DNA from: Coemansia sp. RSA 487
Lineage: Eukaryota; Kickxellomycota; Kickxellomycetes; Kickxellales; Kickxellaceae
Assembly: GCA_027577595.1 (NCBI GenBank)
Contig: JANBRJ010000019.1
Location: forward strand, 159,977-223,976
Length of the DNA stretch: 64,000 nt
Reading direction: 5' to 3'
The notes under the pieces were generated by a model. It had not been told where the DNA came from. It saw only the letters and a list, made by a program, of their open reading frames with translations, and did not search any database. This document shows positions 1-62,600 of the stretch, one piece after another (the first letter of the stretch is position 1; every line of letters starts with the position of its first letter). Position numbers and translations under genes: made by a program.

Positions 1-353
1 GGCGCCAGCACACCAAGAGTCATCATGTACATCTCGTGCAACTCGGGCTGCGGCATCCGTGGGTCATAGAACCTCGTGGCCGAGTCGGCAAACCCCAATG
101 GTTGTTTGCGGCACGCGATTGTGCCCACGCACGCTCCCTGATACACTGCTAGCTGCGCAAACTGCCCAGGCTGCGTCAGGCTCTTGTAGTAGCTGCTGCT
201 GTACCGGACGGGGAACAGCACCGAGTTCAGGTTACGCACCTTGCTAACAGTGTCCGAGCTCACTTGTATAAACTCCACAGGGTTTCCGTTTTCTGTCGTC
301 ACTGCGCCAAGCCCCACAGGAATGCCGTTACTGTTGCTCTCCGTGCAATTCAT
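1..353 (-). CDS. NAA50: N-alpha-acetyltransferase 50 (GNAT family), N-terminal part
   Basis: The minus strand opens at an ATG at 353 and reads without stop off the left edge, giving 117 residues. The stretch VRNLNSVLFPV followed by YSSSYYK and, at the edge, MYMMTLGVLAP matches the start of NAA50, whose family has RLNQVIFPVSYND and YIMTLGCLAPYRR at the same spacing. NAA50 acetylates N-terminal methionines as part of the ribosome-associated NatE complex. An in-frame TAA lies upstream, so this ATG is the only start in this exon. The N-terminal extension of about 35 residues is longer than in animals. The acetyl-CoA loop and C-terminus are outside the window. Confidence 0.85.
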   Translation of the reverse strand, partial: MNCTESNSNGIPVGLGAVTTENGNPVEFIQVSSDTVSKVRNLNSVLFPVRYSSSYYKSLTQPGQFAQLAVYQGACVGTIACRKQPLGFADSATRFYDPRMPQPELHEMYMMTLGVLA

Positions 354-1081
354 TATTTCGTGCCAGCCCAGGAAACGCTGGGATTTGTGTATTTTTTAAA
401 AGTACAAATAAAAGGAATGTGAATAGACAAGCAATTAACAGAAAGTTGGTTGTAGCGAGAAAAAGCAAAGAGAAAGGATTAGGCCAAGGGTATAGTGGGT
501 GCGCAAAAAAAGTGAGAGCCTGGGCTTGTCCACTTATTAATTTCACGACAATCGAGTGCAATGCTTTTAGACAATATGAAAAGTTGGCTAGGATGTTCTT
601 GTCAAAACGCAGGAAATATATTGCTAATCCGCGCATTTATAAGAAAACCTTTGCTTTGTCTTACAACACATCCAGCATGTTTGCTCATGCACACGTTGCA
701 CTTGACTATCGGCTGAACAAAATGTCATGTATAAATTTTCTGTATATTATTTCAGTACGGCACGCCGTCCTCCTATAATGGAGATAGCAAGAAAGCAAAC
801 AAGAACCACATCCACAACAGTTGTCAGAAAATTTCAACAAACGATATAACACTACTGGATCGTCCCCATAAAAGTCTTACAATTACCGAAATTGATCTCA
901 TCTGTATATGCGTTTAGCACAGAGCCGCACTTTTATGCAGATAAACTCTTTACTCTTACTGATGTGGTTTGTGTTTTTTTAATACTCCTTTTTATTTTAT
1001 ACTCTTCATTTAGTACTATTCATTAAACCTCCCTGTAGACACAGCCTACATCGCTTGTAAAAACTAAACCCAATATTGGAA
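354..1081. other. Intergenic, divergent promoter NAA50/cyclin
   Basis: This AT-rich stretch separates two divergently read genes and must hold both promoters. A 119-codon open frame on the plus strand at 419-778 has no recognisable domain and poor composition, so I do not call it a gene. I see no RNA gene or repeat. Confidence 0.5.
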
Positions 1082-2179
1082 ATGTCCACAGCCGCTACAC
1101 GCCACGGCATTTCTGGCAATAACAGCAGCGGCAGCAGCAGTAGACATACTTATATGTCGTCTAGCTACATTTTAGCACAGCTGACAAACACGCCGTCAAT
1201 ATCAAACAGCCATGCGACACATACTAGCAACAAAAACAACAACAGCGAAGGCAGTATCCAGCCGCGCGCCGATCAGCAAGAGATCTTTGACAACCCAGCA
1301 ATGCAGACAGCCACAAAGTGCTGCATTTTTATCAAAGAAATCTCTCGAAAGCTTGGATTCCCTGCGCGCACAGCCAGCACTGCACAGCTACTGGTCTACC
1401 GGACATATATATACCGTCCGTCCACGCGTATAGGGAGCACCGACATGGCCACTGCATGCTTGTTTGTTGCGTCAAAGATGGAGGAGACGATCAAAAAGCT
1501 GCGCGATATAATTGCACATTCGTACGTTATTTTATCCAAGCCGCAGTCCAGTGATCCAAAGCAAGTACCGTCGGCTGTCGTCGACAAGATGCGGCCCAGC
1601 ATCATGAATGCTGAACAGCTTATATTAGAAGCTATTGGCTACGACTTTCGCACATCGCACACCCACTTGTTGTTTGTAAAGCTTGCAAAAATGGCTGGAC
1701 TAGAAAGAAAGTCGGGCATTGCTGCTTTGGGCTGGGCCATTCTTTCAGACGCATACTTCACAACATTGCCTGTACAGTATCCATCAGCCGTGATATCTGC
1801 CGGATCGTTGTGCCTAGCATGGTGTGTAGCTACGGACGAGCCCAAGGACACATGTGTTTCTATCCGCCGTTTGTTTACATCAAATGATGCAAGTGGCAAC
1901 GGCAACCATACGAACGGATATCCGGAGTCCCCAAAAACGGAACCCAAGCGGCCTCTATCGCTTGCATTGACAAAGGATAATGAATGGTGGGTTGGTTTTG
2001 GTGTTTCTACAAGTGATATCCAGAGCTTTGTCAAGCAGATGGTCGACTTTTACTTGCTATTCTTCAACAGCACAATGGCCACCGCAGAGTACCTCGAACG
2101 GCACAAGTACGGCATTCCCAGTAAAGACATGGCTCAAAAGATTGCACAATGGCGAATGAAGATATCAGATAATTCTTGA
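1082..2179 (+). CDS. Cyclin K/T-like cyclin (Ctk2-type, CTD kinase subunit)
   Basis: A 365-residue protein with the two-fold cyclin box. After a Ser/Asn-rich N-terminal tail of about 65 residues comes the motif AATKCCIFIKEISRKLGFP-like helix, then TDMATACLFVASKMEET followed by KKLRDII, the signature of transcriptional cyclins (K, T, L, C). LILEAIGYDFRTSHTH begins the second half of the fold. Such cyclins activate CDK9/CDK12-type kinases that phosphorylate the RNA polymerase II C-terminal domain. The compact single-domain form and the sequence fit Ctk2/cyclin K best; cyclin T (Bur2-like) is the alternative. The start at 1082 is the first ATG; a near-cognate TTG lies six bases upstream. Confidence 0.8.
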   Translation: MSTAATRHGISGNNSSGSSSRHTYMSSSYILAQLTNTPSISNSHATHTSNKNNNSEGSIQPRADQQEIFDNPAMQTATKCCIFIKEISRKLGFPARTASTAQLLVYRTYIYRPSTRIGSTDMATACLFVASKMEETIKKLRDIIAHSYVILSKPQSSDPKQVPSAVVDKMRPSIMNAEQLILEAIGYDFRTSHTHLLFVKLAKMAGLERKSGIAALGWAILSDAYFTTLPVQYPSAVISAGSLCLAWCVATDEPKDTCVSIRRLFTSNDASGNGNHTNGYPESPKTEPKRPLSLALTKDNEWWVGFGVSTSDIQSFVKQMVDFYLLFFNSTMATAEYLERHKYGIPSKDMAQKIAQWRMKISDNS

Positions 2180-2384
2180 AAAAGTCTTTATTTTTTCTTG
2201 GCTACTTGCACATTGCAGTATAGAAAAATTGCAAGTTCGAATGTAAAGTATAAGCTTTTGCCACGCGTCAAATAAATTACCAAGCAGAAAAAAAAAAGAA
2301 AATGGCGACGGGTAAGCTAATGTTGAATAGGGGAGAAATATACATAGTATAGCAGCAATGATATACTGGGTTTTTTTGTAACCC

Positions 2385-3512
2385 TTAGTAAGGATTGCGT
2401 TGGTAGTGGTTGTACTGCTGAAAAGGTCGGCGTTTGCGACGGATCTTTGACTGTACAAAAGCGGGGTTCGAAATGAAAACGATCAACAAGAGTATGCCAA
2501 CACTATCGTTTGAATAGTCACGAACCGATCTGGACCATTTTGCCTCTGGATATGCGTAAACGACAATCTGACCAAGCCCAGTTGCCAAGTGTGCAAGCAG
2601 ATTGATCAATGGGTACAGTGCAAGATAGTAGATTGATCGAGACACCTTGCGGCCGTAGTAGAGGCGATCGAGGGAGTCTGGACTGCTAGGAACAGCAGTT
2701 GTATCTGACTGTTGGCCTCTGCTACGCATTCCAAATTGCCATCTAGGTGACGATGATGCCATTGTATCACCACCAACATCCCTTGCTGCTATGTGTGCTG
2801 CCATACCTTGATGGTACCCAGAAGACCCGCTTGGCCACGAGTCGTTTGCATTGTTCACCATATTTTCGACGGACTGGCAGCTGCTGTCGGTCATTGGTAA
2901 GACCAGCTCGTCGATTTCGCGTCTTAGGCTGCGCCATTCGCGGATTGTCCGCCAGACCCCGGCGCCAACAAGAGCAACAGAAGCCAAGGAACAAATAACA
3001 ATGACAATCGACAGAGTTATAATATGGTAGTGGCGCTGGGACCAGTTTCCGCGGACAATGTACAAATGGTTCTCGCCAAGCTGGCCTGGCCAAGCCAAAA
3101 TAGGCATCGAGATGACAAAAGAGAGAAACAGCGACAATGGAATGTAGAGCTGGTGCAGGCGGCGGGCAGAGCGGTAATGCAAGGCAAAGTTTAACAAAAG
3201 GTCTATGCAGAACGCCGTTATCAGGAAAAAGTAAACAAACGGCAGAAACGAGATATCTAGAAACCCGTACATTATTCGCACATACACTTGGTTTTCTCGA
3301 ACGTGTTGCGGTAAGTGTGTAAAGAATATGTCCAGGTAGCTGATGCAGCGGTTTGCTGTTACCGCAGCCGCCATTGCAAGATTCAACTGCAGGAACATGC
3401 TAAAAACCCAGCCGTTGAATCTGACCAGATATACGATTATTAGACATTGCGCGACCGAGCAGACTATTGAGGTGCCGCAGAATATGCTGTCGACGAGTTC
3501 CTGCGTCTGCAT
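2385..3512 (-). CDS. Seven-transmembrane receptor-like protein (fungal GPCR-like)
   Basis: The 375-residue product has seven hydrophobic segments, roughly residues 8-30, 36-60, 80-110, 124-143, 163-187, 293-320 and 338-352, with a very short N-terminus outside. A long Ser-rich third cytoplasmic loop (about 190-290) is predicted between helices five and six, the usual place for G-protein and kinase contact. The motif NPAFV in helix seven resembles the NPxxY-type ending seen in many receptors. The ligand cannot be told. No enzyme motif is visible. I infer a plasma-membrane sensor similar to Git3/cAMP-receptor-like fungal GPCRs; another seven-helix family remains possible. Confidence 0.65.
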   Translation of the reverse strand: MQTQELVDSIFCGTSIVCSVAQCLIIVYLVRFNGWVFSMFLQLNLAMAAAVTANRCISYLDIFFTHLPQHVRENQVYVRIMYGFLDISFLPFVYFFLITAFCIDLLLNFALHYRSARRLHQLYIPLSLFLSFVISMPILAWPGQLGENHLYIVRGNWSQRHYHIITLSIVIVICSLASVALVGAGVWRTIREWRSLRREIDELVLPMTDSSCQSVENMVNNANDSWPSGSSGYHQGMAAHIAARDVGGDTMASSSPRWQFGMRSRGQQSDTTAVPSSPDSLDRLYYGRKVSRSIYYLALYPLINLLAHLATGLGQIVVYAYPEAKWSRSVRDYSNDSVGILLLIVFISNPAFVQSKIRRKRRPFQQYNHYQRNPY

Positions 3513-6500
3513 GCTGAAAAGAGAGAATGGAAAGTGCTCGCTTCAGTACATTTCACCTGACGTCGTATTTGTGGAGGTGGAAGAGCTTTTTGCTTTTTGA
3601 CCCGCTTCTCTTTTTCTGGCTCCCTCCTAGGCTGCCTGAGTGCTGCTTCCTCAAGCTCTGTATCCTTGCTGTGATTCAGATATATAGATGTTTTGGTGGC
3701 GCTAATATATTTCGCCCTATTTGATATATCTGTTATTTGTAACCGTAACGTATCTGTGGACTATGTTGGATGTACACGGATCCTCGTGTATGTTCAAGAA
3801 ATAAAAGGAGAAATAATGTAGGCTAAATAATGAAAACCGCAAGATAAAGTAAAAAAAGGTGGTAACAAAAAGGGCTGGATATATTTTATAAACAAAACTG
3901 GAATAGCAAGATTTGGAAACAAATGGACGGTTACTGCATTCCCCTGAACGATAGAAACAAAGAGACAAGGAACGTCTGAACAAAGAGGGACAAGGTGGTG
4001 AAAGACAAATGAGTAAGCGCGTGCCCTTGCTTGTTTACAAAATGCACGCCCAAAAGACAAGAGAAAACTGGTTGATAAGCCTTACTCGGCTACGCAATGC
4101 CCTTGCTTCAAATCATTAAAACGGAAACAAGCCGGGACAGTTTAGAATTAAAAAGGAGCGTGGAGGATAAAAGCGGAAAGATATGTCGTTTGAATAAATA
4201 GTCGGCAAGGTGCTGGAAAGTAGACTTGGTTTATGGCGCTGGTTAGAACCTATTTATTTATTTTTTGTTTTGGATAGAGGTGGCGGTGACAATTCAAGTA
4301 TGCTATACAATTTGGGGGACTGCAATGATAATTAGCGCCCATCAAAAGCGACTGCACAAAGAAATAAAAATAGGTAACAAAATAGGTAAAACGGCGGGAT
4401 TGTTTCCTTTTGTTTATGTTGGCGTCGGCTCAAAATAATCAAGAGAAAGAATGGATTCCGGGTGTAGAATGTTTGGAGGTCCAGAAAAATAAAACAGAAA
4501 AGCATCGGCTGAAACGGATTCACCTGTCTTTATCATGCGCTTTTAACATCGACTTCGGCAAGCTTGGAACCGCTGGCACCAAAGGCAAGGCGTCGCCCTC
4601 CGGATGGGGGAATGGACGGATAATGAGAGGGGAGGGGCCCGGCTAGATGCTAGCCGCGACCTGAGAGTGACATTTACTACATCCCTCTTTCTCAAGCTAG
4701 CCGCAGTCTTGGCCATCGCTCAAGAGCAATATGCCTTGAGAAGTCGTCTTCCCTCTCCAATTGTTCTCCCACTGCGAAAGCGCTTTGTTCTGGCTTCTCC
4801 CTCCCCCTCTTTCGGCATGTGCGAGTTTGGACAACAACAATGTGAGCGCGCGTCTTGACGCCATGAATTTTCTATTTGCTTCCAAATGCCTCCGCATTGC
4901 GACTCCTCCCTTCTCCCCTCCCCTGTGTTCTTCTCTTGCCGCTCAATCGCATCTCCACCCATCGGCTGGTCAGCTGCAGGCAGCACCCCCGCTGGATTCT
5001 ATATTTTGTCTGTTTCCTGGGTCCAGAAAGGCCATTTTATCCACTCATCATATGCACCAGCTTCATCCATGCACTGAAAGCATATAGGCGGACAAGTGCT
5101 GGCACCAAATGCGTATCTGCACTGCGAAGCGCGCAATGCAGGTGCTGGTGTTAGCAATAAAGCAGCTATCTCCACTGCTTGTTCCCTGCATTAGCCTGTG
5201 TATTATTTTTTTACTCAAAGAGCTGTAGTGCAGGAGCTGCACTGAGTTGACCTCATGAATGGATACTGTGATGTTGCTTTTTTCCTTTGCAACAATGCCT
5301 CTCTACACCTCCACTCGCATCCCCACTTTCTGTTGCATCTTGGTCAATATAAAGGTAATGCTAGGAGTAAATAGACATGATCAACCACTCCCAAAACGGA
5401 AAATGTCTAAACCATTGTTTCTGCCTACTTTGAGTTGGTTGCCAATGGTGTTGCCTTTTCACATATAAAAATGCTGCTCATCCCAGCCTATTTTTATTTC
5501 ATGGTTTGCTCTTGAGAGCAGAAATCAATCGTTGCTCTTTATCTACTTGTTCAGATGCAGGCATCTTTATACTTGTGTTATCTTGCATATAAGACTATAT
5601 GATGGAAGCAGCTTGTCCCTACCTGCATATATGTGTCGGTATTTTAGGTTGACACATGGTCGGCTGATTGCACAAGAAATTCAAATATACTTTTTTCTCG
5701 AGTGCAAGTTCAATACCATTTCGTCATTTGTTGGAAGACTTTTCCTCACTACGTCAGACGCAGGTATCAGCAGTATGAGCGCCACCCAATATTCCAAGCA
5801 GAAAAATAAAACCAAAGTGTTCTGCAGGATGTGTCTACGTTTAATTAACTACTCGTCATCCTTTATCAACAGCGCTGCTCCTTTTTTGCTTTGCCTTTCA
5901 GACTTCATTGTTCAAATCTTGCTCATACATTCTTTTACACAATGCCTTTATTCCTTTTATTTCCCACGTGCGTGGTCGCTGAATGAAATAAAACTAACAT
6001 TCTATTATACTATCGACCAGTGGTTTCTTTCCCGGTAACCAGCTGTCCATAACGAAAAAGGGACTTGAGAGTTGTGATAGCCGTGGGTTATGGCATGTTA
6101 TATATTTAAAAGTATTCCCATCCTCCACAGCCGCTCTTTATCAACCTCTTGTTTAGACTAAAATGTCGCTCGTATCGACAATAGCTCACTAGTCTTGGTC
6201 TATAGTTTTCTTGATCAAATTTATGGACAAATCGTGGCTGTCTACTTTTTTGGATGTAAAAATGTATAATACGATCAGATGCATTCACTTTTACTCTGTA
6301 ATTTTCTATTATTGCCTTTTGTCGTTCGTTCTCTACAATACTCCTCTTATCGCGCACATAGCTTTCTTTTTGTGTTTATTTTCAGCAACAATAGAATTTG
6401 TTCAATCCCTACCAGGAACAAAAGCAAGAACAGGCATTATTATAAAAAGGTACAATCGTAACCTGCTCAGACTTTAGGTTACAACAGCTTGATACTTTCC

Positions 6501-47257: not shown

Positions 47258-49726
47258 CTAACAGTCGACGCCTGCGCGAGGCCTTTCAGAATTCGGGGAC
47301 GCGCAGCTGGCCGTGATAGCGTCTTCTGTCATAAACGGTGCCGTTGGAAAGAAAAGACAGCGGCGAGGAACCATGCCCAAGTCGCTCCCACGGCTAACAT
47401 TCATCGCCAGGACCCACCCATCGGCAAATTCGCCAAAGACGTACATGCGATCGCCGCGCTCAACGACCAGCTCGTCGGGAAGCACAGGGACATGTGGCTC
47501 GACAGTACGCAACGGTCCCAGCGGCGGCTTATGGCGGACCGCTAGCTGGTAATTATCCGAAATGCTTTCGATACTGTCAGTCAACAACTGCTCACTTTTC
47601 CGCTTGTTTTCAGCTTCCTGCCTATCGTTGCCAGAGTCGGAAGAATTGGCGTCCTGAAACTGCTCCTTTTGTCGCGAACTTTTGCCTTTCTGGCCGTCTT
47701 TTTGATGCAGTGGCGGCTGGTTGCGGAACATTGCACGCAGGGACAGGCTGCTGTTGTGGTCGGTGGAGCGGCTGCTCTTCCTACCGACATTCTTAGTATC
47801 CTTAGCTGGGCTGGATGCCCTCTCGCGCTTTGTCGAGCCACGCACGAGCTTGCGCGGCTTTTGTTGCAGCCCCTGAGGACTATCGCTCTTGGGTGCGCTC
47901 ATTCCTGGATTAACCGAAGACGTGTCAAGAAGCATGTTTCGCTGCTTCGTGTTGCTGCTGGCCACCAATGTCGGCTCGTTTTTGTTTGCAGCTCCACGCT
48001 CCCTGCTGTATCTGGCGGCACCTTCCTTGTTTCTGTCTGACATGTAGAGTCGTGTCTCTGGTGCCTTGCTCTCCAGGTTGGTAATACCGTGTCGGTGGTG
48101 CTCGGACGATGGCAACACGACTCTTGCAGGCTCGCGCAAGGCATAGATGCACTTGTTCGCCGAGCTTCCTTCAGACTCATTCCTGGGCTCTATCCGCCTG
48201 GTGCCGTTGTTCGCATCTGGCTCTTTTGTATATGCCTTTGCGAAGCCTGGCGGTATCGGGGGGCGCATGTGTGCTTGTTTTTCCACGTTGGCCGTACCGG
48301 AGGAGCCACGGCCTGCACACTTTGCCTTCATGCTCTTTGTGCGGTATTCTATGTATGATTGGTCCATTTTCTCGGTGGCATATCTATCCTGCTCGTCAAT
48401 GTGGATAATGCGCTTGTGCTCGGTGTGTTTGTTGTGCGAAGCGGGATTGTTTTGCGAGGTCTGAAGCAGGTACATGGTAATGGCCGCACTGTTACTATTC
48501 CGGAAGGCCTTTTGGGCGTTGTTTGCTGGTTTGTTGTGGCGATTGGCGATGTCGGTACCAGAGTCAGGTACATACCGCTGGTGTTTCTCGCCGACTCCGG
48601 GCTGCCTGTGCTGGTAGCTATCTTCATTGGACGACAAGCTCTGTTTTGACGATGGTCCAGAGCTAACGGCCGCGCCACGCGTCAGATTGGAGGAGCTGCT
48701 GTCGCTTCCGTTGCTGCCTCGCGCTGACCTCAGCTTTTGCTTTCTGCGGTGACGCATGAAGAGATAGAATGGCATCGCAAGAGCGAAGACCAAACCGATG
48801 ATGATCAGACAAATGAAGCCGTCTGCGAGCTTGTATGGCTTGTTTCCCTGCAAATTGTTGCCATTGCCGTTTGTAATCCGCTTCTCACTCGGGTTTATGG
48901 AGTAGACTGGGAAGCTAGCGCTCATCTTGTGGGTTGTGGAGCTTGTCGATATGCTCTCTGAAGCATACGCGCTTTCTTTGTGGTAGTTGAGCGTCGGCGC
49001 TGGAGTTATCGCGTGAGCGTACGTTGGCGCTGCGTTTATTAGGCTTTGCGCATTCGAGATCCTAAGCTGGATGCCTGACCGCGATAGTACTGAAGCCAAG
49101 CCTTGCTGGTTGTTTACCGGTGGCGGCGACGGAATTGTGGATTTGCCGATGGCCTCGTTTTGAGGAATCTGCGACCCTACAACAACAACAGTCTCCGTCT
49201 TCGTATGTATATGACCGTGGCTGACGTCTGAATCGGGTGGTTTTGTTGACTTTGCTACTGAAGCTGGAACCTGCGTTTGGAATATCGCTGGCGGAGGTGC
49301 CGTTTGCTGTGGATGCAGTGGCTCTAGATCTTTGTCCATGCGTAAGACACTCGAGACGGCAGGGCTGATGGTTGGCTTTAAGGACACCTTTGCGCCGACA
49401 ATGTCAAATACATATGGAGATTCCAATGCTACTTGCAGGGAAAAGCTTGTAGGCATCGGCGCGATATGGACATAAGCATTGTTGACATCCTGTGAGAGCC
49501 ATATCGGCTGTGTTAACCTTGGCACGGGTACTGCTGAAGAGACGGAATTAGCAGCGCGATCAGGAACCTGAGCCAAGCTTATTTGAATTGTTTCAGCGTG
49601 CTTGGTGTGCATGTTCGTTGGAGAATGTCCGCTTATGGACTGGATGCTAATATTTTTTATTGACGGGCTAACCGCCTGCGATGCTGCTTGTACCGCAGGT
49701 ACAACGGGTGAAGATACGGTTTGCAT
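47258..49726 (-). CDS. Single-pass membrane protein with cytoplasmic SH3 domain (Fus1-like layout)
   Basis: The 822-residue protein has a Ser/Thr/Pro-rich N-terminal region (to about 300), one transmembrane helix (DGFICLIIIGLVFALAMPFYLFM) followed by basic MRHRRKQK, a long disordered cytoplasmic part, and an SH3 domain near the C-terminus (about 750-805: DELVVERGDRMYVFGEFADGWVLAMN...LGMVPRRCLFF). N-out topology follows from the positive residues after the helix. No cleaved signal peptide is seen; either none exists, as in yeast Fus1, or a short upstream exon is missed. The layout resembles Fus1, a cell-fusion scaffold; sequence homology outside SH3 is not evident. Confidence 0.7.
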   Translation of the reverse strand: MQTVSSPVVPAVQAASQAVSPSIKNISIQSISGHSPTNMHTKHAETIQISLAQVPDRAANSVSSAVPVPRLTQPIWLSQDVNNAYVHIAPMPTSFSLQVALESPYVFDIVGAKVSLKPTISPAVSSVLRMDKDLEPLHPQQTAPPPAIFQTQVPASVAKSTKPPDSDVSHGHIHTKTETVVVVGSQIPQNEAIGKSTIPSPPPVNNQQGLASVLSRSGIQLRISNAQSLINAAPTYAHAITPAPTLNYHKESAYASESISTSSTTHKMSASFPVYSINPSEKRITNGNGNNLQGNKPYKLADGFICLIIIGLVFALAMPFYLFMRHRRKQKLRSARGSNGSDSSSSNLTRGAAVSSGPSSKQSLSSNEDSYQHRQPGVGEKHQRYVPDSGTDIANRHNKPANNAQKAFRNSNSAAITMYLLQTSQNNPASHNKHTEHKRIIHIDEQDRYATEKMDQSYIEYRTKSMKAKCAGRGSSGTANVEKQAHMRPPIPPGFAKAYTKEPDANNGTRRIEPRNESEGSSANKCIYALREPARVVLPSSEHHRHGITNLESKAPETRLYMSDRNKEGAARYSRERGAANKNEPTLVASSNTKQRNMLLDTSSVNPGMSAPKSDSPQGLQQKPRKLVRGSTKRERASSPAKDTKNVGRKSSRSTDHNSSLSLRAMFRNQPPLHQKDGQKGKSSRQKEQFQDANSSDSGNDRQEAENKRKSEQLLTDSIESISDNYQLAVRHKPPLGPLRTVEPHVPVLPDELVVERGDRMYVFGEFADGWVLAMNVSRGSDLGMVPRRCLFFPTAPFMTEDAITASCASPNSERPRAGVDC

Positions 49727-50274
49727 TAGCAAATAAGATGTGCTTGTTTAACAATGAATGACAATATCAAGTTGAGCTTTGAATGTGCAATATATGCTAG
49801 ACATGTAGTAAATGGAAAAGTGTAAATTTTTCTAGTAAATGAAACCAAAAGTTGCAATATCCTGGAGGCCAAGGAGAGAAGCACAAAGGCCTTGATAAAC
49901 AAACAGTCTAATTTCCAGCGTTTGTATCGCTCTATTTCCAGACTGAGCAGCATGCTGAAAATAGCTGTTGTTAAACTAAGATATTTTGGTTTGCGCAACA
50001 AGGCTTTATTTTCCAGATCATCCATCTTTATCGAGATCCATTGTTTCAATCACTGCTTTCCTCTCAACTATAGGGCATAAAACAAGTGCATTATTTTTAG
50101 CCGTCGCCGTTGCAATGTGGAGGCTGCAAGATTTAACCTTTATTTCTAAATACTGATCTTCTTGTGGACGCAGTAGCAAACACAGCCCATTTACACCGCA
50201 GGAAAGCTGTTACTGCGACAAAAACCATTCAACCTACCATGATCAATAGTACATCGAGAAGCTGAACCGAATTA
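49727..50274. other. Flank left of the transposon
   Basis: This is the promoter side of the SH3 protein up to the left end of the transposon. In Fanzor orientation the bases just beyond the element (minus strand from 50274, TAATTCGGTTCAG) would form the guide part of an OMEGA-type RNA. No gene recognised. Confidence 0.5.
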
Positions 50275-50420
50275 CAGTGTTTTGCAAAACTAGCTGCTTC
50301 GAATAAGAAGGATATATGCGCGTCGAATGGTGAAAGGTTTGCAGTGGCAATAATGCATTTTGCGTTCCAACAAAAAGTTGTTTGCGCAGGCGTGGCATAT
50401 GCGTCGGTGCAAAGCAGGAA
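50275..50420 (+). repeat. Left terminal inverted repeat
   Basis: Starts CAGTGTTTTGCAAAAC and aligns to the reverse complement of the right end at roughly 80 percent identity over about 110 bp, then more weakly to about 145 bp. A 23-bp perfect block lies at 50326-50348. GTTTTGCAAAAC at 50278-50289 is a perfect palindrome. Confidence 0.85.
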
Positions 50421-50601
50421 AACACAAAAGAGAAAACACCAATTATTAGTACTGTTGTCTAGAGGCAGCCACAGATGTTTATTCCTTCAGCTCTCGTTTG
50501 AGCACCTACCTGCAAAAGAGACTGCATCCTATCATAGAACCAGAGTTTCTAGAACTAGGATTTGCCGCGGCTATAACCTTGGCTGAATTTCGTGGTGGCT
50601 G
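50275..50601 (-). ncRNA. Predicted Fanzor guide-RNA scaffold region (fRNA/omega RNA)
   Basis: From the Fanzor stop codon to the transposon end there are 327 bp of non-coding DNA on the minus strand. In TnpB and in studied Fanzor elements the guide RNA is made from such a 3' segment running through the transposon end, and the guide is the adjoining flank. Short inverted repeats (GTTCTAGAAAC near 50547; CAAC-T5-GTTG near 50375; GTTTTGCAAAAC at the end) could form stems. This is a prediction from position only. Confidence 0.4.
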
Positions 50602-52803
50602 TTATTTGTTTGTCCTCGCTGTCTTCTTTGCCACAGTTGTCTTCCTTTTCTTCTTGGGCTGCTGTTCATCAGTGGTAGCAGCAGCAGCTGGTCGACTGTG
50701 ACAAAAGCGCTCTGGAGTCTCACCGTGATCGCGAAGGCCATGAAAAATGTGCCTGAAATTGAGAACGGCGGCGAGATCTCGGTTGTACATGCGTGAACGA
50801 GGAGTCAAAACACTATCCACTTCCACGGGACCCATACATAGTTCGTTGGTGCACTTAAGGAGACCGTGGCAGAGCACTTCTTTCCTCTTCTTTCGTTGGT
50901 AGGGGCGGGGGTTGGGCACTTTCAGGAACTTCTTGAGAGTACCAGTGAGGCAGTTCGGGCAGGTCTTTGACGTTCTGAATTCGTCAATAAGATAGACTTG
51001 ACACCCTTTCTTTCTCAGCATTCGCCGAAGCCCGACCCCCCGTATAGGTTCATGGTAGCGAACCATTGGTGCACTCCAGTTGCCTAAGACCACAGTGGGT
51101 TTTTCATCGTCGCATGTCACCCGAATGCTCTTTGCTAGCTTCTCATCGGCTTGCTGCTGCTTGATGTGGGTGGATTGCCGAAGCTTGCGATGAATTGGCT
51201 GAGGGCTACTCCCACTCTTGCTGGCGGTCATAGTGTTCGTGTAGAACCTACTCAGCACTGGCCAAACAGTGACACGCGTCCTGATATATTGCTCATATTT
51301 ATCTGGCAATATCGATGTGCACGAAAAAGCAGCCAATCTGGCCTCAGCAGCCTTGATCTCGTTGCTGTCTGGATGCTCGTTCTTGACCTTTTCCCTCAGC
51401 TTGCGGTAGCGGGTTGTTCGGGTTTCTTTAGCCTTCTGGCTCCGTGTGTATCGGAAAAGAGCCTTCTCCTCAGAGGTGCTCTCATCTGTCATGCCAAAGA
51501 CAATGTCCTGGCGACCCGGATCCATGAAAATTGGGGTTTTCATGTTGGCCAGCAGCTCTGGTGAAAGCTCGTGGATATATGTGAACTCGCCCGGCTTTTT
51601 TTCTCCTGGCTTTTCTCGCTTCCTGGGCTTGCGCTTTTTGGGCTGGTCCTCTGGCAATGAGCCAGTAGCTGCGCTCTCAGCTGGAGCCGTCAACCCACTT
51701 CTGCTGGTATCGATGGCAGCATTTGCTTCAGCATCCATTTTCTTCGCTTTCCTGCTGCTTTTTTCTTTGGCTGTCGCAGTCTTTTTGATCACAGACACTG
51801 ATACGCCGTCAGTCTGTATCGTGCCATAGAATCTGAAGCCATTTCTTGTCCGTAGCACCCTCGATTTTTTATTGAGAAATCTGTACCAATAGCTTTCAAT
51901 GGGGGACTTTGCATTATAGCTCCAGCTCATTATGCTTCGACATAATATCTTGGTGTCAATTTCGATGTGCATTGGCACAAACGACTTCCGCAATGGGAAA
52001 CACTGGAAAGATCTGTAGTTGTTCATCTCAAGAAGCACTACCAAGCAGCAGAATGCTTTGAAGTGCTTTTTTGGCTGTGCCTTGATATCGTAATAAATGC
52101 CCTCCTCCTCAAACTTGTAGTCGTTGTCGTATGCTGTCAACACAGGTTCAAGCATGTCCCCGATGTTCTTGTCGCCCACAGTGATAACCGGAAGAACAGT
52201 GTTGCGGTGCTTTATCGCCTCTTTCAACTCTCTTCCGGGTTTCCAAATCTGGTCTTCATATGCTTCCTTTATCTCATCTGCTGTTCTGCCCTTCATTACC
52301 TCCTCAAGGCCCCTCTTGCGCTCCCGAGTTTTCAGCAGAACATTTACTGCACGCCGAAGATACTGACCAAACTTGGTCTGTATATTATTCACGTATGCAG
52401 TGTAAATTCTTGCTGCCTCAAACTGTGCTGTCTGGTTCGGGTTGGCTATATCAAACTCTGTGATGCCAGCAGCCTCCTTGTACGCATTCAGGTGCTTGCG
52501 TATGACCCTCCTGTACTCCTGGATTTCAGCCTTGACATTCGCCCTGGCTTTCCGCTTGGTGAGGTGCAGGAATACCTCGCCAAAAAATCTCTTTTCTAGG
52601 TACACAGAGGGATCAAACTGCTTGTGAGTAGCCAGCTCATGGACAAATATCCAACGAGTCAGCCCATACATGTGTGCAGAGGCTGTGTTGGCCACTACCA
52701 CATAGTCGTTTACCTTGGCAATGTCATTTCTGTCATTTACCAGAGATTTTAGGGGACACTTTATAACGCGTGTCCCTGTGTCTGATATATCGTCATCGTC
52801 CAT
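50602..52803 (-). CDS. Fanzor, eukaryotic TnpB-family RNA-guided endonuclease
   Basis: The 733-residue open frame has a helical N-terminal half (about 100-300) and a split RuvC nuclease. RuvC-I is FMDPGRQDIVFGM with catalytic Asp428. The usual RuvC-II glutamate site reads VVLGNWSAP, without Glu; instead Glu608 stands in YLIDEFRTSKTCPNC, the shifted position reported for Fanzor1 proteins. The zinc finger follows (Cys615, Cys618, Cys651, Cys656). RuvC-III is MYNRDLAAVLNFRH with Asp676. Nuclear-localisation signals are seen at about 386-403 (KKRKPRKREKPGEKK) and near the C-terminus (PKKKRK, about 716). No stop or frameshift. ATG at 52803; upstream reading starts at TTG. Related proteins cut DNA guided by RNA transcribed from their own element. 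Confidence 0.92.
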   Translation of the reverse strand: MDDDDISDTGTRVIKCPLKSLVNDRNDIAKVNDYVVVANTASAHMYGLTRWIFVHELATHKQFDPSVYLEKRFFGEVFLHLTKRKARANVKAEIQEYRRVIRKHLNAYKEAAGITEFDIANPNQTAQFEAARIYTAYVNNIQTKFGQYLRRAVNVLLKTRERKRGLEEVMKGRTADEIKEAYEDQIWKPGRELKEAIKHRNTVLPVITVGDKNIGDMLEPVLTAYDNDYKFEEEGIYYDIKAQPKKHFKAFCCLVVLLEMNNYRSFQCFPLRKSFVPMHIEIDTKILCRSIMSWSYNAKSPIESYWYRFLNKKSRVLRTRNGFRFYGTIQTDGVSVSVIKKTATAKEKSSRKAKKMDAEANAAIDTSRSGLTAPAESAATGSLPEDQPKKRKPRKREKPGEKKPGEFTYIHELSPELLANMKTPIFMDPGRQDIVFGMTDESTSEEKALFRYTRSQKAKETRTTRYRKLREKVKNEHPDSNEIKAAEARLAAFSCTSILPDKYEQYIRTRVTVWPVLSRFYTNTMTASKSGSSPQPIHRKLRQSTHIKQQQADEKLAKSIRVTCDDEKPTVVLGNWSAPMVRYHEPIRGVGLRRMLRKKGCQVYLIDEFRTSKTCPNCLTGTLKKFLKVPNPRPYQRKKRKEVLCHGLLKCTNELCMGPVEVDSVLTPRSRMYNRDLAAVLNFRHIFHGLRDHGETPERFCHSRPAAAATTDEQQPKKKRKTTVAKKTARTNK

Positions 52804-53199
52804 TGCGGATGGGTGAGCAAACAAGAGCAGACAGCTAATATAATATATGGGTTGCAAGGTGTATTTGGTGTTACGAGTAGAAATAAAATGTCAAAGGAAA
52901 GCCAAGGAGAAACAAAAGTGAAAAAGAAAAACAAACGCCCTTTGGTCGTTACATAGCATTGGCCAACGTTGTCATCAATGTCACACTGCCTTTTCTGGTC
53001 AGGCACACATTTTCTTTTCGTTCTTTAGCTTGTTTGGGAACACTTTTGATACTGATGTATCCCTTTTCACAAGAATATCAAGAGAGCAGACAAAGCTAAA
53101 GTTCCTCGTTTTTATTTTTCATAAATCGCCTGGCTTTTATAGCCGTACGAACACTACAACAATTGAAATAGATATATCGTATGCTTCCCAACAATATGA
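52804..53199 (-). promoter_or_regulatory. Fanzor upstream region
   Basis: The 396 bp between the Fanzor start and the Gypsy fragment contain CTATAAAAGCC on the minus strand at about 53133-53143, a plausible TATA box some 330 bp ahead of the start codon, plus AT-rich leader. No coding sequence was recognised. Confidence 0.4.
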
Positions 53200-53498
53200 T
53201 TGTTCTGACATGGGACAATCATATTGCGATGGCGGCTCATGTGATAACGGTTAGGCGCGCAATTTGCGAGCCATCATCATTATCAGAATACTTTGACGGC
53301 TGTAAAAGCCAATCTTTTGTTGGAATAAAAACGAAGAGGAGCTTTAGTTCCGTTTTGAAAAATACTAACAATCTTTATGAAGCTTGGCAGCACCACCGAC
53401 TTTTATATTATTATAGTTTAATTCAAATCGCTTCCTCTAATGGTGAATTGTTTGGTGGCAATTGTTCTGCTGTGTTGGTTGCCGCAACGTGTATAATA

Positions 53499-54590
53499 AT
53501 GGCGACTATTGAAACTACAAGTTCGTTGTCGGCCACAGAGATCAGCTATGTTTTTAAATTGTTCCGGGTCGAGAAGGATCTATGAGTGTCGTTCGCGTTG
53601 ATGAAAGTTCTGATGGGTAAGCGATCGGAGTACGAGAATTGGTGCGCCTTGAATGGCCACGAGATTCTGGCGTAGAGTTTATTGGGAGATTTTCTAGTCA
53701 CGCTATATTGCGACGCGATCCATTGGTTGGACGCTGGTATTCGAATTTATCAGATGAAGTCGCCAACAAATTCGGCTGAGTTTGAAGCCTTCCTTGAGGA
53801 ATATAAAATCCTATGCAAACACGGCGTATACATTATCGGACAGGGGTTTGCAACATATATATATATATATATCCATTGCGAAGCTTCCGATCAAGCTTTG
53901 TAATCGGTTCATTACTGAGGCAGCAACTAATACAGCGTATAAGTTCGATGCGGTTGTGCCAAAGGCTAGGTGCTTCTTCGGAGCCGAAAAGCCAATGCAG
54001 CGGGAGCCAGTTAAAATTGATGCAATTATGACAGGTATGACTCGTTGTAATCTGAACAACTGGCCGAAGGCTGAGGACTGACAAGCCCTTAGCTGTGCCG
54101 CGTAGTATAGCGTTTGTCGAAACGAGTCCGTTGAATGGGACACCTGCACAAATCCTGCCTGCGGAGCAGTTGTATATTGATGGCATAGCTAACGAGATCC
54201 TGGTTCACATTTTGGTGGATGGCGGGTCGCAGATAACTATTGCCAATGAGGAGTTTTGTAAGCAGTAGAAAGTCAAGTTGTATGATTTGGACTCGTCGAT
54301 ACCGAATGTTTTGGCCGATGGCGCATACTGTCGTGACTGTACAATGTATTGCAGATTTCCTATTCATTTCGGTGGCAATTTGCACATTAATACTTATTGT
54401 TTGGTTATTCTAGCGACGGCTGATATTCTTCTCGGTAACAACTGACTGAAAGAGCATAAGAGTGTTCTCCATTGCGAAAAGGACGTTGTTTTTATTACTG
54501 AAAAAGATAAGCGTTGGAAAACCTCGGGAACAGTAGTTCGGTCTGCATCTGTTGCAGAGAACGCGGTCAAACTGATTGCATTCAATGCAG
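53499..54590 (+). pseudogene. Gypsy gag and protease remnant
   Basis: An ATG at 53499 opens a short gag-like reading soon broken by stops. Around 54180-54260 the frame IDGIANEILVHILVDGGSQITIAN resembles the retropepsin active site, with DGG in place of the usual D-S/T-G. In-frame stops (for example TAG at about 54267 and TGA near 54444) break the protein. Assigned from position and the protease-like motif. Confidence 0.55.
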
Positions 54591-55716
54591 TGACAAAGTT
54601 AGCGAAAGACGACAATGTCGATTCGATGGACTGGGTTTGCGTGAGATTTCCTGAGGACGATTTGAAGTCACAATTGTCTGTTGCGGCACTACCGACGAGC
54701 CAGGAAGATCTGTTGGCGACGTTGTGTTCAAAGCATAAGCAGATACTTGAGCAACCGCCAGTCAGTCGACCTGTGCCTGGCGGTCCTGAAATCGAGATCC
54801 ATCTGACAGAGGGGTCTGAACCGGTCGCCAAGGCGCCGTATCGTTTGTCGCATGCAGAGCTGGCTGAGATGGAGAAGCGAATAGGCGAATTGCTGAAGGT
54901 TATATTTGCGCGTCTACGTCGCCTTGGACTGTTCCGGTGTTGTTTGTGGGTAAGAAGGATGGTACGCTACGCATATACGTTGATTATCGCGACTTGAACA
55001 AGTGTACGATTAAGGATGCGTTTCCAATGCCACTTATTGATGACTTGCTTGATGAGACACATGGCGCGCAGATGTTTTCGAAGATCGATCTTGTTCAGGC
55101 ATATCACCAGGTGCGTATTCGTGATGAGGACATTCCAAAGACGGCTTTCCGAACGAAGTTGGGATCATACGAGTGCACGGTTGTGCCGTCTGGGCTGGCC
55201 AACGCACCGGCGGTGTTACAGCAAGTGATAAGCCATACACCACGTGGTTTTATTGGCAAGTGTTGCATTGTGCACTCGGATGGTATTCTGATTTATTCAA
55301 GGAATGCTGAAGAACACGCGAAACATTTGGATGCAGTACTCCAGCGTTTGCAGGAGAATAAGCTACATACGAAGCCGGAGAAATGCGAGATTTTCAAGGA
55401 TTTGGTCGAGTTTTTGGGTTATGTGATCACGAAGGACGGCTTGAGAACAGATCCAGGCAAAGCGGCAGTAGTTAAAAATTGGCATATGCCCGAACTGTTT
55501 ACTGATGTTCGGGCTTTCCTAGGTCTTAGTGGTTATTATCGTCGTTTTGTCAAAGACTGCTCACAGATTGCTATGCTATTAACGAATTTTCTGGCGACGA
55601 AGGAGTTTGGTTGGAATGACGAAGCAGAATCGGCATTTAATGAGCTGAAGGAACTGCTGTCGTCTGCACCGACTATCAAGCAGTTTGATCCGAAACGAGC
55701 GATTTGTGTTGAAACG
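54591..55716 (+). pseudogene. Gypsy reverse transcriptase remnant
   Basis: The reading from 54591 leads through PGGPEIEIHLTEGSEPVAKAPYRL, then is shifted by one base near 54898. From 54937 it continues with VGKKDGTLRIYVDYRDLNK, FSKIDLVQAYHQVRI and SGLANAPAVLQQ, clear RT motifs. The active site reads VHSDGILIYS instead of YxDD, so two catalytic positions are changed. It ends at AICVET where the RNase H domain should start. The remnant cannot be active. Confidence 0.9.
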
Positions 55717-56640
55717 CCCCATTTTACTTTGGACCAAAGCTCCTCAATGGGATTTAGAAAGGGCGAGTATGGAGGCAGATATAGGCGCTTGTATCGTCTG
55801 TATTCTACTAGGTCTCGAATGGCTAATAGCGTGTGGATTGGAACATTGTCCATCACAAGATAGTGGCCATCCGTGTTTTTTGCATCCAGCACATCGATTA
55901 CATTTGAGATGTAGGCCAGAAAGTGCTCTGTCCGTGTGCCAACACGCCCACTAACCCTGATCTCGTTGCCATTGGCTTTTCTCTTTTTGGCAGCAGAAAC
56001 GGCTTGAGGCTTTCTTAATGAAACATCAGCCACACCTGCGCTAGCCATTGCACCTAGGATGATTATTGAAATACCTGTTCCTGGGGGCACAGTTCCCTTC
56101 GCTGGTTTCCCTATCAATAAGCGACCAAAGTTCCTTTGGATGTGCAAGTTGAATCCAGCCTCATCAGTGAAAATGCAGTTTGTAGCAAATCCAGGGTCGG
56201 CCATCTGCTCCCACTGCTCAACCCTTTCTTTTCTCAATGCAATTACTCTGTTAGAGTTTCGTTCTGCAGGGAGTTTTTCTAGCTTCTTTAGCGTTAAGCA
56301 GCATTTGCCAACCAAATACCTGTGTAGTACTGGCACTAATATAGTCAGGTCGTTGAATGCTCCACATAGACCCTTCTTAATGTGTGCCAGCACTGCAGTT
56401 GGGTTCTTGTTCAAGGTAGTGGTAGTATTTCTTCAGACTGTTAGTTTCTGCCTGTGCTTTCAATGTAATTAGTTAGCATTGATCTTCATAAAACCTGAGA
56501 AGCCAATCCATTTTTAGCGTGAAATAACAGGCGTGTAGCGAACAGCTTTCTTGGCAAAGCCCAGTTTGCGCCCCTTGCTTCCAAGCGCAAATATAACACC
56601 AACTGACGCAAGCGACTTTTCTTGGAACGCAAAATGCGTT
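55717..56640 (-). pseudogene. Tc1/IS630-type DD34E transposase, truncated and frameshifted
   Basis: The DDE domain is clear: CIFTDEAGFNLHIQRN (first Asp), LVMDNVPIH (second Asp) and PYSPFLNPIEELWSKVKWG (Glu), with 34 residues between second Asp and Glu. That spacing is typical of the Tc1 group. The C-terminus after KVKWG is replaced by the antisense of the Gypsy fragment. The N-terminal HTH part is broken: a one-base shift near 56410 (between YYHYLEQ and NPTAVLAHIKKG) and in-frame stops at about 56514 and 56469. The coding sequence begins inside the right inverted repeat (HFAFQEKSLASVGVIFALG). Confidence 0.88.
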
Positions 56641-56713
56641 ATCGCCACTGCAAACCTTTCACCATTTGACGCGTATACATCTTATTTGACGCAACCAGTT
56701 TTACAAAATACTG
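56570..56713 (-). repeat. Right terminal inverted repeat
   Basis: Read on the minus strand from 56713 it starts CAGTATTTTGTAAAAC and pairs with the left repeat; the 23-bp perfect block is at 56644-56666. A 4-bp indel and mostly transition differences separate the two copies. In Fanzor orientation the flank just before it ends in ACATA. Confidence 0.85.
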
Positions 56714-56896
56714 TATGTAAGAGTCATATCAAGATACGGCCTCTAGAAAATACGCCGCTTTTTTACAAACTTTTTTCCTGGCCGATCCACTTTCCCTTTA
56801 TGACAAACTTGCAATTTGCACTTTTGATATTCATTTCTTGTACTTTTACCGTATTTTCTTTCTTCTACACAATTATATATAAAATCCAGAGTTTCA

Positions 56897-57679
56897 ATGG
56901 CAACCGAACCCAACACGCTTTTGACAGCGCTCGGCGACTATGGAAGCGACAGAGATAGCAGTGATTCAGAAAACAGCCAAAGTCATTTAGAAGACAACGC
57001 TCTGCAAAATGCACAAAATGACAACACTGGCACTATGATGGAAAGCGACTCTGAAGACGAAGCGAACGATGCGGATAAGGAAGCGCGTCCCAGCCGAACC
57101 CCAGACTATGCCGCTAGCAGAGAGCAGTCCCAATCGAATATTAGCGATGAACGGCTTGCAGCCTATAGAGAAACAAAACATAACCTCGATCGGCTGCTGG
57201 GGTGTGAACAGATACCCGACTTTGCTCCGCGTCCAGAGATAGGAAAGTGTTCGGTAGAACTTCAGGAAAAGTTTGCCCATTGGTATGCACTGAAGCGGCA
57301 AGGAGCAAACTTTAACGACGCGCTGATGCGAAACAAAACGTTTCGGAACCCAAATATATACAAAAGGCTTGTGGATCACTTGGATCTGGAAGAAACTGGA
57401 TCGAACATGACTCCTGACGGTTTTGATTCGGCAACTCTGAGAAAGAACTTTACTGCCGAAGGGCTGGCGAGCGAGCAAGAGAGGAGGGCACGCGAGTACG
57501 CTGCACGGAAAACTGCAGAGGCAGCAGCTAATGGGATGCGCAAGATACAGTTCCAGTCTGCTGGCCACCAAACTGCACAGACTGCAGATCCAGTGCAGGC
57601 ACAGAATGGTAGATCTTTTGAGGAGGCTGTACAGCGCGCCAAGTTGATAGCTCAGCACCTAGCCAAATCCAAAAAGTAA
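56897..57679 (+). CDS. SAP30-binding protein / HCNGP family
   Basis: The 260-residue protein begins TALGDYGSDRDSSDSE, the family lead motif, followed by an acidic segment. The conserved HCNGP block is IPDFAPRPEIGKCSVELQEKFAHWY, NKTFRNPNIYKRLVDHLDLEETGSNMTPDGFD. SAP30BP helps splicing of short introns with RBM17 and binds the SAP30 repressor in animals. The C-terminal part is Lys/Arg/Gln-rich. Single exon, ATG at 56897, only 181 bp from the transposon end, so the insertion sits in its promoter region. Confidence 0.9.
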   Translation: MATEPNTLLTALGDYGSDRDSSDSENSQSHLEDNALQNAQNDNTGTMMESDSEDEANDADKEARPSRTPDYAASREQSQSNISDERLAAYRETKHNLDRLLGCEQIPDFAPRPEIGKCSVELQEKFAHWYALKRQGANFNDALMRNKTFRNPNIYKRLVDHLDLEETGSNMTPDGFDSATLRKNFTAEGLASEQERRAREYAARKTAEAAANGMRKIQFQSAGHQTAQTADPVQAQNGRSFEEAVQRAKLIAQHLAKSKK

Positions 57680-59627: not shown

Positions 59628-62600
59628 TTATTGGATGGCTACAAAGTTTTGGCGAATCTGCCTCTTGCTCAGCATATGGTGGCGACGGCGGTAGTGCACC
59701 ATGAAGATGCAAACAGCGATCACAACCGCACAAGAAACGCCAACGCCAACGCCGATCCACTTGGACCGCGAGCTGGACTTTGCATCGCCTTGCAAGGGAC
59801 TGTCAACCTGGCCGGGACTGTCAGGGGCGACCTGCGCAACACCGTTGAGGTCGTCCAGGCTGCTGGTCACCTGCATGTATGTCCTGTCAATCAGTGGGCC
59901 CCACGAGTTGAGGGTATGGATCTCACTCGACGAATCGCGTACCTGCGAGCTCAGCGATGTGGACAGAAGCTGTAGCTCTGACTTGGGGTTCACTGCTGAG
60001 CTGTCCTTGGTGATCGAAAGGCTGATGTAGTAGTGCGGGTAGTCTGGCTCCGTGCTGCGCACGAGTAACGAGCGCCGACGGTTGGCTACGACAACCGCAT
60101 CTGCCTGAGCAAAAATCATTGACGCCGTTACACGGTTATCGTTAATGCCCAAGGCTGTGGCCACGAGGTTCGGGATCTGGTTGAACGCCTGCGAAGCCAA
60201 GTAGTTGTTGGATCCAAACAAGTTGGCGTATGGCGCGAGAATCCTGAGCGTGAACGTCAGGCACTGGCTGCACGTGGAGCTAAGCGGATTAAAGACCACC
60301 TGCGGCAGTGAGTCACTAGAGTCGGTCGAATCGCTGGCCGAAGCGGTTTCTGTTGGCTCGGCAGTCAAACGCCCAAAATCAACAGAGGTGGGCACAACAA
60401 TCAAGCTCTTGGTTGTCAAAGTAGACGACGATGATGATGACGATGACGACGACGACGATGTCATTGTAGGGGTACTTTGGGCGACTGGAGTAGACTTCTC
60501 GATTTCCCTGGTGCTTGAAGGCACAGTTGACGTCTCAGCCTCTTCTGTGGTGGCCACAGCAGACGACTCGGCATCAGTGATCGGCTCAACAGAAGAAGTG
60601 TCGTCAGCAGTCTCTGTATCTGTGATACTTTCGCCAATGGTTTCAAAGGTGTCGGACGTCTCTTCTTCACTCTTGGTTGCGAATACCCAGGACGACGTGA
60701 ACCGGTCGGTGGATTCAAAAGCACCTTCAGATGTCTCGACACCAAATGTATCGCCAGTAGTGAATTCTTCATTTGACCTAAACGACATGTCATCGGTGAC
60801 AAATGTATCTGAAGAAGCCTGGTCCCATGGGAAACTAAAAGATGGAAAGAGATCGGACACTTCATCGGCGGGAGATGTTGGAGAAGCAAAGCCACTTTCT
60901 TCATCAGTAGTCTCAAACCAGGGAGGGAGGAGCGGGGTTTCAGTAGTATCCTCGTCAAAGCCATCTGTCTGCGAGTCTGTTGGTACTTCGATGATCGAAA
61001 GGGCGCTGCTGATAGAATTAGACTCATCGTTGCCTGGTTCGCTGCCGGTTTGCGTTTCATCCCCAGGCCAGGTAATTTCGGGCCAGCTTATCTCGGGCCA
61101 GCTTATCTCGGGCCAGCTTATCTCGGGCCAGCTTATCTCGGGCCAGCTTATTTCTGGCCAGCTAATCTCTGGGAACAAATCACTATCCGAAGTAGTCGCT
61201 TCTTCGACTGTAGTTACTGCAGAATCAGTCGCTTCTTTGACTGTAGTTACTGCAGAATCAGTCGCTTCTTCGACTGTAGTCACTACAGAATCAGTCGCAG
61301 ATGATTCTACAATAACATCGGACGATACTATGTCTGTTTGTGTATCGGTAGTCATCTCTTCACTTAAAGTAAAGCCATCGTCAGTCGATGTCTCAGAGCC
61401 CAGCAAATCAGACGAAGACAGTTCTGGAAGTAAGTCGGGCAGCGACAACTCAGGGATACTCAACGAAGGCAGCAAACCTCCAGCATCGCCATTGCTCGTG
61501 GGCTCAGTCAGAGACTCTCTAGTCTCCTCCAGAACTGTGGTAAACTCTGTGAACGAACTGGGATCCGAATCGGTGCTCCTACCGCTGTTGCCGGCGTCAT
61601 CACTTGATAAATCTATGGATTGCTCAAAGAGCGAGGTGTCAAAGATGGAGGTGGTGGTGGTGGATGTAGGTGTGGTGGTAGGGTGGTTAGTTGGTTGTGT
61701 CAAGGTGTTGGTGGGATGATGGGTGTCTTCAGTGGTGGTGGTGGTGATGGAAGGAATGAATTCATCCGTGCTCTCGTTGTCCGAAGAAAATGACTCTGCC
61801 AGAGAGTCATCTGACAAAGTAAATTCCGGGATAGACGAGGTAAACGAAAGACTGCTTTCTTGTTCTGAAGTCCAAAAGACAGTGGTCTTACTATCCTCGG
61901 GCCTATTTGGCGCGACAGAGGATACTCCAAAGTCGGACGTCGCATCTTCAAACGAGGAAAACACAGTGCTTGCGTCTTCTTCAGGCATAGTATCAGAGGT
62001 GGATAGAGATTGGTGGTGTGTGGTTGCAGACTCAGCAGATGAAATATTTCCATCGTCACTGCTGTCGTATTGGGGTGAAGTTGTGGTAGGTAAGGTGGTG
62101 GTCAAGTGGTGGTTTGTGGTGGTGACAAAAGTAGTGGTGGTAGGTATAGTGACGCTTTCTTCAAAAGGAATGGTAGATGACTCCCCCGAGTCAAAGATAC
62201 TGCTGCCATCGTCTCCCAGAGACGATGTTTCTGTCGAGGGCAGTGTATGAGTGGAGGATATGTTACCTTCTGACGTTTCAAACGGCATAACGCTGGACGC
62301 GATACCGCTGACTTTCTCGTCCTTGCTAGAAACTGGCTCAACAGGTCCGCTCGGTTTTTCGTGCTCAAGTATTGTGGACTCCGTATCATCGGTGCTAGAA
62401 CCATTGCCGATATCCAAAATACCGTCCAAACTACCAATTACCGACGAGGTTGGATCGTCAGCGGAGTTCAAAGTGGAGCTGATTTCGGTTTTGGAAGTCT
62501 AAAAAATAAAAAAATAATAAGACAAGAGCAGCTGGGTGAGAAAAAGGCAGTTGAGAATATAAACATCGTGCTTATTGGTCCATTTATAGGAGACAAACAG

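Follow-up and report, generated by a model that had tools for sequence, protein, structure and literature searches.

The window, a stretch of 64,000 nucleotides from Coemansia sp. RSA 487, holds at 50275-56713 a full-length, ageing member of a transposon family of the Tc1/mariner type (DD34E) which bears Fanzor1 and has expanded in Coemansia; this kind of element has been known since 2013. Between its terminal inverted repeats (TIRs), the minus strand carried a Fanzor1 gene (50602..52803) and the remnant of a DD34E transposase gene (55713..56432), and the plus strand carried a Ty3/gypsy-type reverse-transcriptase fragment (53239..55712). An earlier note on this DNA had placed a Fanzor inside a Tc1/mariner-type element with inverted repeats starting CAGT beside TA, and the repeats, the termini and the TA were all verified.

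The 3' TIR (50275..50392, minus strand) reads CAGTGTTTTGCAAAACT inward and its terminus was also present in other copies, and the 5' TIR (56596..56713, minus strand), recognised by repeat comparison, reads CAGTATTTTGTAAAACT inward. On the 3' side of Fanzor the TA at 50273..50274 is followed by CAGT at 50275, while at the other end ACTG reaches 56713 and is followed by TA at 56714-56715. The latter TA belongs to the junction upstream of the element (56714..56718, minus strand), which reads ACATA in the direction of Fanzor, includes the TA duplication and fits the 5'-junction consensus A[CA]AT[AG]. Self-alignment recovered core inverted-repeat arms at 50311-50375 and 56617-56681 (65 nt, 91% complementary, 6241 nt apart), and no comparable pair existed in 49500-57500, where the runner-up had only 36 nt at 72%. 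The left end could be aligned with the right-end query at 83% over 112 alignment columns; the repeats are thus real, and the length of about 145 bp given earlier was a little long.

The Fanzor1 gene was an open frame of 733 aa. Its protein matched the solved Fanzor1 of Parasitella parasitica (PpFz1, 9cf0) with E 2.5e-103 and SpuFz1 (8gkh) with E 1e-43. The motifs DPG, DEFRTS and NRD were found at residues 427, 606 and 673 (numbering of the 732-aa reading), and these we take, with the help of PMC10711439, to be the catalytic triad motifs. The protein was assigned to Fanzor1 by its sequence relation to proven Fanzor1 and by its RuvC and zinc-finger motifs, and its match to Pfam PF07282 was below the cut-off of that model. 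Close relatives in the protein search carried Coemansia names, with Coemansia sp. RSA 1813, 986, 1843 and 1646 among the related strains, and no paper on both Fanzor and Coemansia was found in a literature search. The window protein (P0002) was recorded on 5 contigs, an indication that closely related strains share this insertion. In addition, two predicted Coemansia proteins, P0034 and P0044, had a Fanzor piece fused to another domain (PF05368/PF13460; PF07690), and these fusions may be gene-prediction artefacts or insertions.

The transposase remnant, identified by profile and alignment, retained the D, D and E residues. It matched Pfam DDE_3 (E 3.5e-19), the IS630 model (E 1.8e-16, with 60.5 bits under the model cut-off of 100) and Sleeping Beauty (E 0.0057), and on the last alignment 34 residues separated D195 from E230. 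The first Met of the open frame was residue 77, and the C-terminus was lost. A DD34E transposase on the Fanzor strand had been claimed before; the DDE residues and the strand were confirmed, but the gene is broken and left as a remnant. Its C-terminus was cut off by the Ty3/gypsy-type fragment, recognised by profile and from other copies (RVT_1 at ~54949-55428), which interrupts the transposase immediately past the NPIEE motif. The same retroelement stretch was found in 13 other stretches examined, 6 of them in the 12-element set described below, with a pairwise difference of 0.13. Since this divergence resembles that of much of the element, the fragment was probably inserted in an ancestral element and carried along afterwards.

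The 17.8 Mb genome to which the window belongs was scanned for further copies; only the best candidates were scored, so the copy counts are lower bounds. At least 40 scored matches were obtained with the left-end query and at least 41 with the right-end query, and the Fanzor protein query gave at least 71 matching stretches, among which a second group had an identity close to 40%. The earlier note had named copies ending at other positions as a refuting finding; the search returned instead a common terminus, with 83 forward and 87 reverse matches to the terminus pattern at up to 3 mismatches (170 in all), when the reversed control gave 0 and 0. As expected of a Tc1/mariner (IS630) transposon, the inverted repeats at the termini stop at the same points in copies that are independent of each other; for 19 sites the flanking sequence matched nowhere but at its own place. 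A copy on contig C7 matched the window element at 89% over positions 3-6204 of 6439, with the remaining end unmatched, and two-ended copies of 5.3-6.0 kb were present on C22, C82 and C10. Copies on C1, C71, C78, C140 and C41 jumped from ~1001 to ~3361-3499 of the element, that is, they were without the retroelement stretch.

Two ends could be joined for 33 elements, 10 of 2.8-6.0 kb and 23 of 0.48-1.4 kb. Among these short derivatives, or ghosts, 22 of the 23 were mapped on the window element: a junction of ~414-431 with 5811 was shared by 7 and one of 389 with 6257-6261 by 3, and smaller groups shared others. Neither gene was complete in the ghosts, and the 3' end was retained. As they lack a complete gene and yet have recurrent deletion junctions, they are most naturally explained as having been mobilised in trans.

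Fanzor was under purifying selection during the spread of the family, and the transposase of the same elements was in near-neutral drift. In 48 stretches compared with the window copy, Fanzor differed by 0.072, 0.068 and 0.147 at codon positions 1, 2 and 3 (third/other ratio 2.11), and the transposase in 25 stretches by 0.112, 0.111 and 0.132 (ratio 1.19, p 0.007). When the 12 elements with both genes were compared with each other, excluding the window copy, the ratio was 1.86 for Fanzor and 1.04 for the transposase. The mean ratio of nonsynonymous to synonymous substitution (dN/dS) of Fanzor was 0.28 (range 0.22-0.37; 36 pairs from 9 stop-free whole or partial copies), a value which the choice of stop-free copies biases low, whereas the two codon-position tests take in broken copies too. 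One element pairing transposase and nuclease had been proposed in the earlier note; both genes do lie within shared ends in many copies, but the transposase of the 12 matched copies had no codon-position signal, so the weight had been put on the wrong gene.

For the flanks, 100 of the 170 terminus-pattern matches were listed and part of these entered the end analysis. A total of 143 distinct ends was collected, from which 18 that could not be classed as 5' or 3' and 4 with more than 6 mismatches were dropped, leaving 66 five-prime and 55 three-prime ends; 29 of 68 five-prime ends were classed via the right-end query that found them, and the rest by inner comparison. On the Fanzor strand the bases of the 5' flank were, going towards the element, 70% A at -5, 42% C and 32% A at -4, 74% A at -3, 86% T at -2, and 58% A and 41% G at -1. 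In the 3' flank, read as its mirror image, T made up 91% at -2, G and A made up 56% and 33% at -1, and A+T was mildly enriched. From -5 to -3, A[CA]A was present in 32/66 five-prime and 4/55 three-prime ends, and 0 of 20000 label permutations were as extreme; it was found in 19/38 of the kept five-prime ends classed from inner sequence alone. In the 33 two-ended elements, 4 of which had one end classed solely through its partner, A[CA]A was only 5' in 17, only 3' in 2 and at neither end in 14. CAT[AG] was present in 20/66 five-prime versus 1/55 three-prime ends (Fisher 1.7e-5), and CA at -4 and -3 among TA/TG ends in 20/57 versus 1/46, with CA before TA elsewhere in the window at 6.4%. The flanking dinucleotides of the two-ended elements were TA on both sides in 8, TA/CA in 10, TG/CA in 4, TG/TA in 3 and other combinations in 8, and as the 3' neighbour of the element on the Fanzor strand CA was commoner than TA. 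No relation to divergence from the consensus, taken as age, was seen for the -1 base or for CA at -4 and -3. A tree label test of the A or G state at -1 by subfamily was without clear clustering, but the positive controls, the +1 and +4 bases that belong to the element, were likewise unclustered. A presumed family of miniature inverted-repeat transposable elements (20 copies) was tried as a Fanzor-free control and rejected: the sequence beyond the right repeat was alike in many, so these copies are probably part of what lies at the 5' side of another Fanzor family. Its 18 left ends had A[CA]A in 2 and A at -3 in 12, and its 18 right ends in 0 and 4.

Orientation-blind insertion at TA would give mirror-symmetric flanks and a nuclease which reads a target-adjacent motif (TAM) one-sided ones, so the observed asymmetry fits a TAM. 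The TAM measured for SpuFz1 is CATA (PMC10432273); PpFz1, which is the closest relative among the solved proteins, has ATN (PMC11423790). AT at -3 and -2, present in 42/66 five-prime and 17/55 three-prime junctions, fits ATN. A[CA]A lies where a Fanzor TAM should and resembles both CATA and ATN, which makes it a candidate TAM. The one-sided junction pattern is not new in itself; the present count sets it against the other end of the element, and does so for a family with a transposase remnant. On the other side of the element, the candidate guide is the ~15 nt beyond TA on the Fanzor strand (50258..50272, minus strand), placed by analogy with the SpuFz1 RNA, which according to PMC10432273 extends 14-15 nt beyond the conserved region. 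The 3' TIR would then be the candidate end of the omega-RNA scaffold. In this way a testable TAM and guide are now proposed for a Coemansia Fanzor.

Taken together, this is a Fanzor1-bearing DD34E family in which Fanzor is kept by selection, most likely because it cuts the empty site under RNA guidance and so allows the element to be copied back, and we favour this reading with moderate confidence. A transposase inserted the element at TA, as the common ends, the TA junctions and the spread of deletion derivatives show, and by now it would be supplied in trans. Fanzor would carry an RNA made from the element's 3' end and the bases which flank it, recognise the unoccupied site through the upstream A[CA]ATA-like motif and cut it, and repair of the cut empty site would copy the element back. 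The motif, which is upstream only, could then be the footprint of that recognition requirement, and the ghosts, keeping the 3' end, could be served in trans. Cutting of the empty donor site had already been suggested in the earlier note; the upstream-only TAM-like motif and the purifying selection on Fanzor fit it, but a search of the own genome with 19 of the 34 joined sites yielded no empty site. The role of Fanzor for its transposon was called unknown by Saito et al. 2023, as stated in PMC10432273. The question can be put to sequence in a family that has ghosts and many copies and still shows a remnant of its transposase, and its copies give fairly direct evidence on the service of Fanzor to its carrier, though the element itself is ordinary in kind.

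Besides the missing empty sites, several observations weigh against empty-site cutting and copy-back. The weak third-position excess of the transposase against the window copy is one of them. In addition, loci L031-L060 entered because they matched the Fanzor protein, a choice that gives preference to well-kept Fanzor genes and may lift the Fanzor ratio somewhat; the contrast between Fanzor and the transposase within the same elements stands despite this sampling bias. About half of the 5' ends were without the full A[CA]A motif, and the frequent G at the outermost base of both ends, position -1 read inward, is not explained by a plain TA duplication. For the RNA, no conserved fold was obtained with RNAalifold on 51 three-prime ends (energy 0.0, z 0.25), shorter three-prime ends folded at only 0.0 to -0.36, and no Rfam match at gathering scores was found in the window. 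The 3' region was also not clearly more conserved: in the 12 elements the pairwise difference was 0.109 from the Fanzor stop to the TIR and 0.133 in the 3' TIR, versus 0.134 in the transposase remnant.

The one-sided motif might instead be a property of the transposase, which would bind the two ends differently and insert in an oriented way at the asymmetric ACATA/AAATA, with Fanzor uninvolved. The two ends do differ somewhat in sequence, but two relatives have measured TAMs that are like the extra bases, these bases stand on the side required of a TAM, and Spizellomyces also has a conserved CA upstream of the 5' repeat, at Fanzor and ghost loci, so we consider this rather unlikely. Retention of Fanzor for a host function, or for some other defence or regulation of the element which would make copy-back irrelevant, agrees with a selection signal that is present where the transposases of the same elements show none; it appears improbable, as the many copies, the open and broken Fanzor frames and the ghosts which keep the 3' end look element-like and not like a domesticated gene. 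That Fanzor and the transposase are unrelated neighbours or nested elements between two repeats by chance, as the retroelement fragment between the two genes could hint, has hardly any probability left and was rejected, since colinear copies with the same gene order between the same ends recur with and without that fragment.

For the second Fanzor family in the same genome, about 40% identical, five copies were located (C113:40310-42445, C101:54195-56291, C54:63632-65791, C66:76187-78301 and C23:54759-56852; flanks L151-L160, right ends L181-L196). Its left end looked Tc1-like (CAGTGGTGAGCCAAT) and was often preceded by an ATA-type flank, and its right ends mostly had a fixed ...TTGGCA-like stop, with no matching inverted repeat seen there. 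CA was the right end in 5/5 copies and in 12/16 further ends (1 TA, 1 CC and 2 poorly matched), and CA may therefore be part of the scaffold of the RNA. It has been proposed in PMC10711439 that duplications become absorbed into the Fanzor1 RNA scaffold. By analogy, the frequent 3' change from TA to CA in the window's family could be a duplication recoded into the RNA scaffold, as the second family hints. A more extended form of the empty-site reading, offered tentatively, would be that selection maintains the nuclease and not the transposase, and that copies persist by Fanzor re-cutting emptied A[CA]ATA sites followed by repair, with transposition borrowed in trans and the 3' CA possibly due to scaffold recoding. 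Elsewhere in the window two tandem arrays were observed, one at 61066-61169 (15-bp unit, 6.9 copies) and another at 61194-61298 (33-bp unit, 3.2 copies).

Mariner elements coding for both Fanzor1 and a transposase, with TA duplications, were described by Bao and Jurka 2013 (PMC3627910). The Coemansia element is like PUl-1 from Pythium and PGv-1 from a virus in that work, in which Fanzor1 and a Mariner-type transposase lie within TIRs with TA duplications. The elements named there as having a transposase belong to viruses, an oomycete and a contig of Hydra that is believed to be viral, whereas here the host is a fungus and the family is multi-copy, with a decayed transposase and ghosts. SPu-1/SpuFz1 of Spizellomyces punctatus is similar in being multi-copy with putative TA duplications, ghosts, CA upstream of the 5' repeat and occasional Ty3 passengers (PMC10432273, PMC3627910). 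However, in the description of SPu-1 in PMC10432273 no transposase is reported between the repeats, where the Coemansia element has a DD34E remnant, and SpuFz1 is more distant from the window Fanzor than PpFz1 is. PpFz1 is the closest solved protein, and its ATN fits the candidate TAM. As in the IS200/IS605 and IS607 elements with TnpB described in PMC10711439, transposon ends are combined with an RNA-guided nuclease, a right-flank guide and a left-flank TAM, the last two as candidates here. Unlike those elements, the Coemansia element has a DD34E transposase and a eukaryotic Fanzor1.

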